From a virus, in IMG/VR virus record IMGVR_UViG_3300040960_001106, positions 1 through 38,067 of that record: a DNA stretch of 38,067 nt. One strand, written 5' to 3'. Of this stretch, positions 28,135 through 36,364 are shown piece by piece. Every line of letters starts with the position of its first letter. Positions within the stretch are counted from its first letter, which is position 1. The notes below the pieces were generated by a model, which saw only the letters and a program-made list of their open reading frames with translations, had not been told where the DNA came from and did not search any database. A program made the translations under genes and the position numbers.

Positions 28135-28149
28135 TCTGTAAGGTATAGA
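28135..28149 (-). promoter_or_regulatory. Putative phage RNA polymerase promoter, copy A (leftward)
   Basis: The minus strand reads TCTATACCTTACAGA. The preceding TTTCAAAA is shared with copy C. It points at terS and the late structural genes. Confidence 0.7.
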
Positions 28150-28203
28150 TTTTGAAACTTTTAAGGGAGATTGTTGCCTTTGGCATAAATTGGGTCTTAT
28201 AGC

Positions 28204-28312
28204 TTATTAGGCTTTATAGGCTTATATACTTATTTATATATTTATTTATGGCTTATAAGGCTTATATAGGCCTTAGGCTTATATAAGCTTATATAAGCCT
28301 TAAGCTTTAGCG
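28204..28312. repeat. GGCTTATA repeat cluster with 26-bp palindrome
   Basis: GGCTTATA or close variants occur at least five times, and 28275-28300 is a perfect 26-bp palindrome (12-base arms GGCTTATATAAG plus one flanking pair). The segment lies between promoter copies A and B and contains no gene. A cruciform, iteron-type protein-binding site, transcript hairpin or replication origin are all possible. Similar TATAAGCTTATATAG sequence recurs near 35415 beside the other promoter cluster. Confidence 0.6.
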
Positions 28313-28316
28313 TTTT

Positions 28317-28331
28317 TCTGTAAGGCATAGA
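28317..28331 (-). promoter_or_regulatory. Putative phage RNA polymerase promoter, copy B (leftward)
   Basis: The minus strand reads TCTATGCCTTACAGA, preceded by TTCCTAAT as in copy D. It begins 20 bp after the bS21 stop and points at the packaging and structural genes. Confidence 0.7.
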
Positions 28332-28351
28332 ATTAGGAATAGCCTTATAAA

Positions 28352-28585
28352 TTATAAGTTTCTTTCCCTTTTTATTTTAGCCTTATAAAGGTTTATTTTA
28401 CCTTCTTTTGATTTTCTTACTTTTATTTCAGATGGTTTTTCATATCTTTGCCTTTCTCGGTATGTTTTCATTATACCTAATTTGCTAGATTTGTTTTTCA
28501 TCTTACGAAGTGCTTTTTCAAGGTTACCATCTTTAACAATAACTAAAAAATTACCTCGTTTTTGTGGTTTATTTATTATAACAAT
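28352..28585 (-). CDS. Ribosomal protein bS21 homologue with non-AUG start
   Basis: The frame encodes a 77-residue basic protein. It aligns with bS21 over its length: FLVIVKDGNLEKALRKMKNK, then a G at the turn, YRERQRYEKPSE (the bS21 hallmark YEKPS) and a Lys-rich tail. E. coli bS21 has 71 residues. No ATG, GTG or TTG exists between the upstream in-frame TAA and the middle of the domain. The best start is ATT at 28585 after AGAGAGGGGG; ATA at 28579 is an alternative. Phage bS21 genes are known from marine phages and may alter host ribosomes. An AUU start is known in infC, where it permits autoregulation. Homology is strong; the start is inferred. Confidence 0.82.
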   Translation of the reverse strand: MVIINKPQKRGNFLVIVKDGNLEKALRKMKNKSSKLGIMKTYRERQRYEKPSEIKVRKSKEGKINLYKAKIKRERNL

Positions 28586-28595
28586 TACCCCCTCT

Positions 28596-28739
28596 CTAAA
28601 ATATTAAATTAATTAATACACAAGATATAAAGCCTAGACTAAACCAGGTTACCTCCTGTTTATTATTGGAACAAAACCAGTATATTTTTTCAATACCTTC
28701 TCCAATTTTTTCTAATGCTTGGTATATATATTTATCCAT
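28596..28739 (-). CDS. 47-residue membrane protein after the RNA polymerase gene
   Basis: Strong AAAAGGAG site before the ATG, directly after the RNA polymerase stop. The N-terminus is amphipathic (MDKYIYQALEKIGEGIEKIY) and the C-terminus is one hydrophobic helix (VTWFSLGFISCVLINLIF). Its stop TAG lies just before the ribosome site of the bS21 frame. Its last codons (ATA TTT TAG) offer a TTTT run at which a +1 shift would lead into the bS21 frame. Function unknown. Confidence 0.65.
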   Translation of the reverse strand: MDKYIYQALEKIGEGIEKIYWFCSNNKQEVTWFSLGFISCVLINLIF

Positions 28740-28750
28740 TTTTTCTCCTT

Positions 28751-31039
28751 TTATGCAAAAGCAAACTCAGATTGCAATATTTCACTGCTATCTAAATTTC
28801 CTCGTTTAATCATAGGTACCAAATTTCCAGTTTCATTTAATATATGTTGAAGTGGATCTTGGTCTATAATATATTTAAATTGTTCTCTGATACATTTTTG
28901 CATATCAACCACATTACAAGCATGTGAGCCATAACTGTCATGTGCAGAAACTATATCAAAGTTACATTTATCAATTACAAGCATTAAATGTAATGAGTCC
29001 AAATTATGAATTGTATTAGGACTTATTCCAGCCTTAGCCTTACTAATATTTTGTACTGCTAATTCTGTTTTAATAATTAACTCTAATTGATAATCCCATT
29101 TATACGATTTATCTGCATTTTGTACATATAAACCATCATGAACAAATACAATACCTCTTTTATATTTGACATATTTTTGTGTAAACGGAAAATTGCTAAT
29201 TAATGTTTTATGAGAATATTGTTTACCAGTACCCTTCATATATTTTTCGCAATTATCCTTAAACAACTGCATAGTTGCTGAAACCATAGGAAATTCTTGT
29301 TCAATTGTTAAATAAACAAGAGCACCTAAAGCCCTAGCCGCTGAATGTTGTTTGTTACTCAAATATACATTATCTATATCTCTAGTATCCTGTATTATTT
29401 GTTCACCCATACCTTGCTTGGTTGCACTGTATCCATAAGTCATAACATTCCGTTTAACAATTTTACGCCATTCTTTAACGGTAAATTTAGACTTATCCCA
29501 ATAAATGATGTCAGTTAATTTAAGTTCCTTTTTATATCTTCTCTGATACCATTTAATTAACTTTTTATATAACTCAGATTTTTTATCATTATTTAATTCA
29601 GCAATTCTAAACCTATTTCTAAGTTTTTCTATGCCTTTAAAATATAAATTATAATAATCTAAAGCTACATCATCTGCTTTTTCTGCTTCTTTGTGCATTT
29701 TATCCACAACAGAAACTGCTACATGTGAATACATATCACCTGGTTTATTATCTGTTGTAGGTTTTACATTAACTAAATGTGCATGATTATCGTCTTTAGC
29801 TAAACTAAATAACCATTGCAAACCATTATTAGATCCATCTCTGTAACAAATGGTATGTGATACAAAATCCTCAACATTACCCATTGCTACAAAATGCTCA
29901 TCCAATTTAGCTAATTCCATAACCGCTGATAAAAATTGAAATGGTTCTTCTGCTTCCATCCAACCTTTTGCATTATAAGGATCCTTACCCATTTTAACAA
30001 AATTATAATATTCTTTTTGTACAAATTTAACTTTGTCATTATGTGTTAATTTATCTTCACCAAACATATTAGCTATATGATGATATAATTGGTTTAATCC
30101 AGTAGAGCCAAGTGGTTTACCTTCAGCAAATGAAAGCATGCCTTTAGCATTATCTGAATTAAGTTCATTTAAATAAGCTGATAACGGATATAATCTGCCA
30201 CGGTTATCTGCTTGATATTGTTGGTAAAATACCTTTCCAACAAATGGTTTAGCTGCATTTAAAACTTGCTCAGCTTCTCTTTTCTTAGCCAATGCTCTTT
30301 CTCTTGATATTGTTTTAACCGAATTATGCTCAAAACAATCCTGATTAGTTTTTAATGCCCATTGGTAAACATTAAACAGTTCAGGTTTTACATAATAAGC
30401 TATTGATTGCTTTTTATTTACTGCATTTAATACAATAGGTGTATTATATTCATTAATTTGTGCTAATGTATCTTGATTAACATTTTTAATTAATCTAATT
30501 TCTTCACCATTGTCTATTTTTACTGTACCAAACTTCCAATCTGGAGCCCGGGATAATAAAGGCTTATAAGGATCTGAAACTTCAGAAAATTCTTTTATTA
30601 ATTTTCTAAGATCATTTCTATTTTTACCTGCATAAACTTTATAAACAGTTTTAACTTTATTATGTTGATAATATTCTCTAATTAATTTTACAACCACCAT
30701 AAATAAAGTGCTATATGAATTAATTATAAATATACCTAGCTTTAATGATATTGATGATTTTTTATTAACATTATAATAAGCCAATATTCTATCACCAATA
30801 GCAATAGCTAATTGTGTTAGGTTTTGTCCTTCAGATACACCAGTTGCTATCATTGAATGTGATAATTGTATTGCAATATTAAAATCTATTTTATAATTAT
30901 TAATTGCTGTTACAACATCTGGTTTTCTATTACTTGTAGTTTTATTTGACAGTTTATCAAATAACATTTCCATTTGTGTTCTTATTTTTATCCCCACTGG
31001 ACCTAGCGTTTCTAAACTGTGCAATTGCTCGTTTAACAT
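28751..31039 (-). CDS. T7-like single-subunit RNA polymerase
   Basis: This 762-residue protein carries the family's catalytic motifs. RGRLYPLSAYL lies at 280-290 and motif A with Asp401 (YRDGSNNGLQ) follows. The nucleotide-binding helix (Lys529 to Tyr537, KRNVMTYGY) and motif C with His700-Asp701 (AHDSYGS) are present. It ends in SEFAFA, nearly identical to the C-terminus of T7 RNA polymerase. It is about 120 residues shorter than the T7 enzyme, mostly in the promoter-binding N-terminal part. GGAGGAAA precedes the ATG. It should transcribe the late genes from its own promoters, most likely the six motif copies listed here. Confidence 0.95.
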   Translation of the reverse strand: MLNEQLHSLETLGPVGIKIRTQMEMLFDKLSNKTTSNRKPDVVTAINNYKIDFNIAIQLSHSMIATGVSEGQNLTQLAIAIGDRILAYYNVNKKSSISLKLGIFIINSYSTLFMVVVKLIREYYQHNKVKTVYKVYAGKNRNDLRKLIKEFSEVSDPYKPLLSRAPDWKFGTVKIDNGEEIRLIKNVNQDTLAQINEYNTPIVLNAVNKKQSIAYYVKPELFNVYQWALKTNQDCFEHNSVKTISRERALAKKREAEQVLNAAKPFVGKVFYQQYQADNRGRLYPLSAYLNELNSDNAKGMLSFAEGKPLGSTGLNQLYHHIANMFGEDKLTHNDKVKFVQKEYYNFVKMGKDPYNAKGWMEAEEPFQFLSAVMELAKLDEHFVAMGNVEDFVSHTICYRDGSNNGLQWLFSLAKDDNHAHLVNVKPTTDNKPGDMYSHVAVSVVDKMHKEAEKADDVALDYYNLYFKGIEKLRNRFRIAELNNDKKSELYKKLIKWYQRRYKKELKLTDIIYWDKSKFTVKEWRKIVKRNVMTYGYSATKQGMGEQIIQDTRDIDNVYLSNKQHSAARALGALVYLTIEQEFPMVSATMQLFKDNCEKYMKGTGKQYSHKTLISNFPFTQKYVKYKRGIVFVHDGLYVQNADKSYKWDYQLELIIKTELAVQNISKAKAGISPNTIHNLDSLHLMLVIDKCNFDIVSAHDSYGSHACNVVDMQKCIREQFKYIIDQDPLQHILNETGNLVPMIKRGNLDSSEILQSEFAFA

Positions 31040-35346: not shown

Positions 35347-35361
35347 TCTGTAAGGTATAGA
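35347..35361 (-). promoter_or_regulatory. Putative phage RNA polymerase promoter, copy C (leftward)
   Basis: The minus strand reads TCTATACCTTACAGA. It forms a divergent pair with copy D, separated by 15 bp, and points at the leftward unit beginning at 34887. Confidence 0.7.
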
Positions 35362-35376
35362 TTTTGAAATCCTAAT

Positions 35377-35391
35377 TCTATGTCTTACAGA
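35377..35391 (+). promoter_or_regulatory. Putative phage RNA polymerase promoter, copy D (rightward)
   Basis: The plus strand reads TCTATGTCTTACAGA, the only copy with T at the eighth position. Upstream TCCTAAT matches copy B. Confidence 0.68.
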
Positions 35392-35449
35392 AAAACTAAA
35401 AATAAAACTTATCTATAAGCTTATATAGTTATATGAATATATTCCTATT

Positions 35450-35464
35450 TCTATACCTTACAGA
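35450..35464 (+). promoter_or_regulatory. Putative phage RNA polymerase promoter, copy E (rightward)
   Basis: The plus strand reads TCTATACCTTACAGA, preceded by TTCCTATT. Transcripts would begin about 110 bp before the Cys-rich gene and include the hairpin leader at 35503-35574. Confidence 0.7.
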
Positions 35465-36345: not shown

Positions 36346-36349
36346 TAAA

Positions 36350-36364
36350 TCTATGCCTTACAGA
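36350..36364 (+). promoter_or_regulatory. Putative phage RNA polymerase promoter, copy F (rightward)
   Basis: The plus strand reads TCTATGCCTTACAGA, ending 9 bp before the ATG of the ASCH-like gene, so its transcript would have a very short leader. The AGGA ribosome site lies just after the motif. Confidence 0.7.

Follow-up and report, generated by a model that had tools for sequence, protein, structure and literature searches.

A phage of SAR11 encodes a bS21 ribosomal protein whose gene lacks any normal start codon; instead, an extended Shine-Dalgarno (SD) sequence with a 15-base match to the end of the host 16S rRNA appears to direct the ribosome to an AUA codon, and the rpsU gene of SAR11 itself shows nearly the same arrangement. 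We put the probability of non-AUG initiation directed by the extended SD at about 0.8; this estimate does not extend to the feedback regulation considered below. The analysis started from a stretch of 38,067 nucleotides (IMG/VR record IMGVR_UViG_3300040960_001106, hereafter the window) and from an earlier note that had pointed out a bS21 frame without AUG, GUG or UUG start at 28352-28585. L numbers are our labels for the phage and bacterial sequences compared.

A bS21 gene without a canonical start codon

The observation made in the earlier note was confirmed. The features of the region are as follows.

28352..28579, minus strand: bS21 (Ribosomal_S21) coding sequence if initiated at AUA 28579-28577 (75 aa: fM-I-N-K-P-Q-K-R-G-N-F...), with the stop codon at 28354-28352
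28577..28579, minus strand: most likely start codon, AUA
28583..28585, minus strand: AUU proposed as start in the earlier note, inside the SD helix
28583..28597, minus strand: extended SD AGAGAGGGGGUAAUU, with 15 uninterrupted pairs to the SAR11 16S tail GGAUUACCUCCUUUCU
28573..28600, minus strand: 28-nt near-invariant block TTTAGAGAGGRGGTAATTGTTATAATWA, single copy in the window
28596..28739, minus strand: 47-codon ORF with a hydrophobic C-terminal segment, whose stop TAG overlaps the first two bases of the SD (possible translational coupling)
28751..31039, minus strand: T7-like RNA polymerase, 70% identical to those of Pelagibacter phages Kolga and Aegir
28317..28333, minus strand: repeated motif ATTCTATRCCTTACAGA just after bS21 (candidate promoter of the phage RNA polymerase)

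On the minus strand, an in-frame TAA lies two codons before TTT AGA GAG GGG GTA ATT GTT ATA ATA AAT AAA CCA, and no ATG, GTG or TTG is found between this stop and ATG 28501. The frame matches Pfam PF01165 (Ribosomal_S21) with 52.3 bits against a cutoff of 27 (E=4.6e-14), and the match covers residues 21-67 of the open frame. The internal ATG is residue 35, so that a start there would delete the first 14 residues of the match.

The absence of a canonical start is neither chance nor an assembly error, as it is shared by 21 distinct haplotypes from the window and many IMG/VR contigs of independent metagenomes. In these haplotypes the first canonical start lies at codon +17 (18 haplotypes) or +10 (3 haplotypes) after the NF motif. 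All of them were also recovered with bS21-peptide seeds that do not require the element, so the sample was not chosen for it. Conservation of ATT and ATA among related phages had been proposed beforehand as a test, and both codons are invariant in the haplotypes. An ATG at the same place in a relative had been named as a sign of assembly error; one such relative, L170, a sister phage, was found, and it has ATG at both codons but has also lost the SD. In a non-exhaustive degenerate DNA scan allowing ATG or GTG at these codons, no relative with a canonical start in the element was seen.

The 28-nt block is invariant at 26 of 28 columns in 20 haplotypes, while both flanks vary: the best 28-nt window has 11 invariant columns upstream, in the 47-codon ORF, and 20 downstream. 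No synonymous change occurs in the codons GTA ATT GTT ATA, whereas codons further downstream vary largely by synonymous or conservative changes, and two contigs carry a 6-nt in-frame insertion just after the block. The protein frame is therefore translated from near this block, and the block itself is constrained as nucleic acid.

An extended SD matched to the SAR11 16S tail

With a usual 16S tail (GGAUCACCUCCUUUCU), the block already pairs more strongly than any other start region of the phage (-17.3 kcal/mol). The closest cultured relatives of the phage are Pelagibacter phages Kolga and Aegir (terminase 72%, RNA polymerase 70%, similar gene order), and we therefore read the SAR11 tail directly. 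It is GGATTACCTCCTTTCT in 97 of 99 readable SAR11 16S genes (e.g., L220 and L241), where the 3' end reads GGATTACCTCC instead of GGATCACCTCC. With this tail, AGAGAGGRGGUAAUU forms 15 uninterrupted pairs (-21.4 to -22.3 kcal/mol), and the window sequence, at -21.4 kcal/mol, ranks first among 25,364 sliding windows of the phage genome. The element pairs with the SAR11-specific U where it would mismatch the usual C, and its one variable position (G or A) pairs with U either way. Thus, the block is an extended SD tuned to SAR11, and the complementarity also acts as a host marker. It should be noted that the host is inferred from relatedness to Kolga and Aegir and from the 16S complementarity; the element was absent from 397 genomes of the SAR11 order that were searched for it.

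The interpretation offered in the earlier note was partly supported. Its proposal of a non-AUG start with an SD, in the manner of infC, is well supported, but of its two candidates AUA 28579 is preferred over AUU 28585. The latter sits inside the 15-bp helix, 2 nt after AGGRGG, whereas AUA 28579 lies 8 nt after it, which is the distance found for the AUG of the relatives Aegir, L177, L181, L182 and L189 and for the AUA of one host group (GGAGG-N8-AUA). L170, placed as sister to the element clade in an RNA-polymerase tree (support of 84/76, which is not strong), has an 11-nt deletion that removes the SD and reads ATG GCT ATG where the others read ATT GTT ATA. GUU 28582 and AUA 28576 are not excluded as starts, and the choice among these codons is not settled. 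The feedback control suggested in the note was not put to a test, its alternative of a +1 shift at TTT TAG is not supported, and the trait is not unique to the phage. The ATG-type relatives L025 (2050-2066), L177, L181, L182 and L189 carry a start-stop pair (AUG UAA or AUG UAG) between the SD and the bS21 AUG: GGAGGTAATGTAAATG.

Non-AUG starts in host rpsU and in other phages

In 42 SAR11 genomes (e.g., L340-L347 and L411-L444), the rpsU start codon, as fixed by homology, is ATT in 36, ATC in 1, ACG in 1 and ATG in 4. The 38 non-AUG genes have strong SDs (GGAGG; mean -12.6 kcal/mol for ATT, weakest -9.3), while the four ATG genes have none (mean -1.6). In a second group of the same order, 34 of 36 have ATA and one has ATC. 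The control gene rpsO starts with ATG in all 13 readable cases. In a class-wide sample, 10 of 50 rpsU genes lack any canonical start near the expected position, whereas in a phylum-wide sample, mostly outside SAR11, 26 of 26 rpsU genes examined have ATG, GTG or TTG. Other Alphaproteobacteria with rpsU frames lacking ATG, GTG or TTG near the expected start (candidates ATC, ATA, CTG and ATT) are L391, L392, L397, L401, L404, L407, L453, L454, L455 and L457. The infC gene starts with GTG in most SAR11 group I genomes examined and apparently has no canonical start (AAGGAGATTAAAATAGCA...) in the second group and in another genome (L470, L471-L473).

In marine phage bS21 genes, non-AUG starts (AUA, UUG) go with stronger SDs than AUG (p=3e-8; UUG alone p=2e-4). 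UUG is often paired with an extended SD (AGGAGAGGAGGTAAA...TTG; median -20.0, n=17), as in L537-L543, L547, L554, L559, L563, L568 and L026 (Mosig), while ATG genes have a median of -10.3 (n=30). These sequences are related, so the p values are only indicative, and some ATG relatives (Aegir, L177 and L189) also have strong SDs, so that a strong SD is not confined to weak starts.

Proposed mechanism and comparison with known systems

The sequences themselves show the absence of canonical starts, the near-invariance of the element, its 15-bp complementarity to the SAR11-specific 16S tail, the same arrangement in host rpsU, and the coupled loss of SD and gain of AUG in one phage and four host genomes. 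That initiator tRNA decodes AUA because the extended SD anchors the 30S subunit there is our inference; there is no ribosome profiling, N-terminal peptide or reporter for this gene. That the arrangement serves as a feedback switch is a further inference, about as likely as not. In this view, ribosomes lacking bS21 would have a freer anti-SD and would initiate on this mRNA; as bS21 or IF3-dependent fidelity is restored, the weak codon would be rejected, so that bS21 output would follow the need of the ribosome, and the phage would have kept the host-style control on its own copy. The data establish the architecture strongly, the start codon fairly and the feedback only by analogy.

Each ingredient is already known. 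Like infC, which has AUU, AUA or AUC starts and is autoregulated by IF3, bS21 belongs to the translation apparatus and combines a conserved non-canonical start with an SD (PMC5472188, PMC13009471). IF3 represses such starts (PMC5472188 and works cited there); repression of the bS21 gene by IF3 was not measured here, and this gene is partly phage-borne. In Flavobacterium johnsoniae, ribosomes lacking bS21 prefer the extended SD of rpsU, giving autoregulation (PMC9976891), and the phage gene resembles it in having an SD stronger than -13 kcal/mol that is the strongest of its genome. It differs in its SAR11 lineage and phage setting and in its non-canonical start codon, and many other genes in the window have moderate SDs, contrary to what is expected of a system in which most other genes lack one. 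Occlusion of the anti-SD by bS21 is shown for Bacteroidota (F. johnsoniae) only and was not assayed for SAR11. In S. aureus, extended SDs direct conserved AUU (cvfC1) and AUA (ccpN) starts, as shown by initiation profiling and reporters, at about 10% of AUG (PMC13009471), although these genes and hosts are unrelated and involve no ribosomal protein or phage. Phage-encoded bS21 is itself known: that of the SAR11 phage HTVC008M enters E. coli ribosomes (PMC6375957), but HTVC008M uses an annotated ATG with a weak SD, and Mosig uses TTG with an extended SD. For a conserved non-AUG start on bS21, no report in SAR11, Alphaproteobacteria or phages was found in the literature searched, most subscription journals lying outside it.

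It is possible, though slightly less likely than not, that in SAR11, among the most abundant bacteria in the sea, and in some other Alphaproteobacteria, bS21 synthesis is governed by a feedback device built of a near-cognate start codon (AUU, AUA, AUC) plus an extended SD, in SAR11 matched to a lineage-specific 16S tail, and that phages have adopted it to set their own bS21 dose during ribosome take-over. The finding links two known regulatory ideas, non-AUG starts read by initiation fidelity and bS21 reading of the anti-SD, in one gene of a globally abundant host and its phages, and it makes the open question of what phage bS21 does testable by reporters. Gene callers that allow only AUG, GUG and UUG will truncate, mis-start or miss this phage gene and would mis-start rpsU in most SAR11 genomes.

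ALTERNATIVES

The most serious alternative, which overlaps with our reading on the start itself, is that the weak codon simply sets a low, constitutive output without feedback. The attenuation of AUU and AUA starts in S. aureus to about 10% of AUG (PMC13009471) is consistent with this, and the pairing of strong SD and weak codon could be compensation only. On the other hand, bS21 contacts the anti-SD, rpsU is autoregulated through an extended SD in Bacteroidota (PMC9976891), and the near-invariance of the whole block suggests more than a rate setting. Simple attenuation without feedback remains a serious rival.

It is unlikely that the block is a promoter or other DNA element. It contains an extended -10-like TGTTATAAT and is conserved at the nucleotide level, but it is single copy, whereas a different motif is repeated. 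Its R position switches only between G and A, both of which pair with 16S U, its complementarity to 16S is uninterrupted over 15 nt, and the frame would still lack a start. A conserved RNA hairpin was not supported either, as RNAalifold gave a structure only downstream of the element and single-sequence folds differed. No tRNA was found in the window, which argues against a phage tRNA with an altered anticodon.

A programmed +1 frameshift at TTT TAG (or ATT TAG), fusing the 47-aa membrane protein to bS21, is also unlikely. The 47-codon ORF ends in TTT TAG as the note had stated, the frames are in +1 register, and tRNA-Phe could slip from TTT to TTT in the window sequence. In relatives, however, the last codon is TTT or ATT, and in the several haplotypes with ATT TAG slippage would mismatch, so the P-site codon is not a conserved slippery one. 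The SD lies 3' of the shift site, not 5' as in prfB, the relatives Aegir, L170 and L175-L189 have bS21 as a separate ATG ORF, and host rpsU has the same non-AUG pattern. A membrane-anchored bS21 is, by inference, functionally unlikely. Least likely is a start at the internal ATG 28501 with relic sequence upstream: this ATG is conserved in all 21 haplotypes, but such a start would remove part of the domain, the upstream frame is kept with synonymous changes, and the homologous M is internal in ATG-initiated relatives.

The repeated motif ATTCTATRCCTTACAGA had 7 matches against 0.55 expected and is possibly the promoter of the phage RNA polymerase. In the window it occurs at 28317-28333, 28135-28151 and 35347-35363 on the minus strand and at 35375-35391, 35448-35464 and 36348-36364 on the plus strand, and bS21 is the last gene before two copies. 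Dense short palindromes of the type AAGCTTATATAAGC are found downstream of bS21, at 28205-28300.
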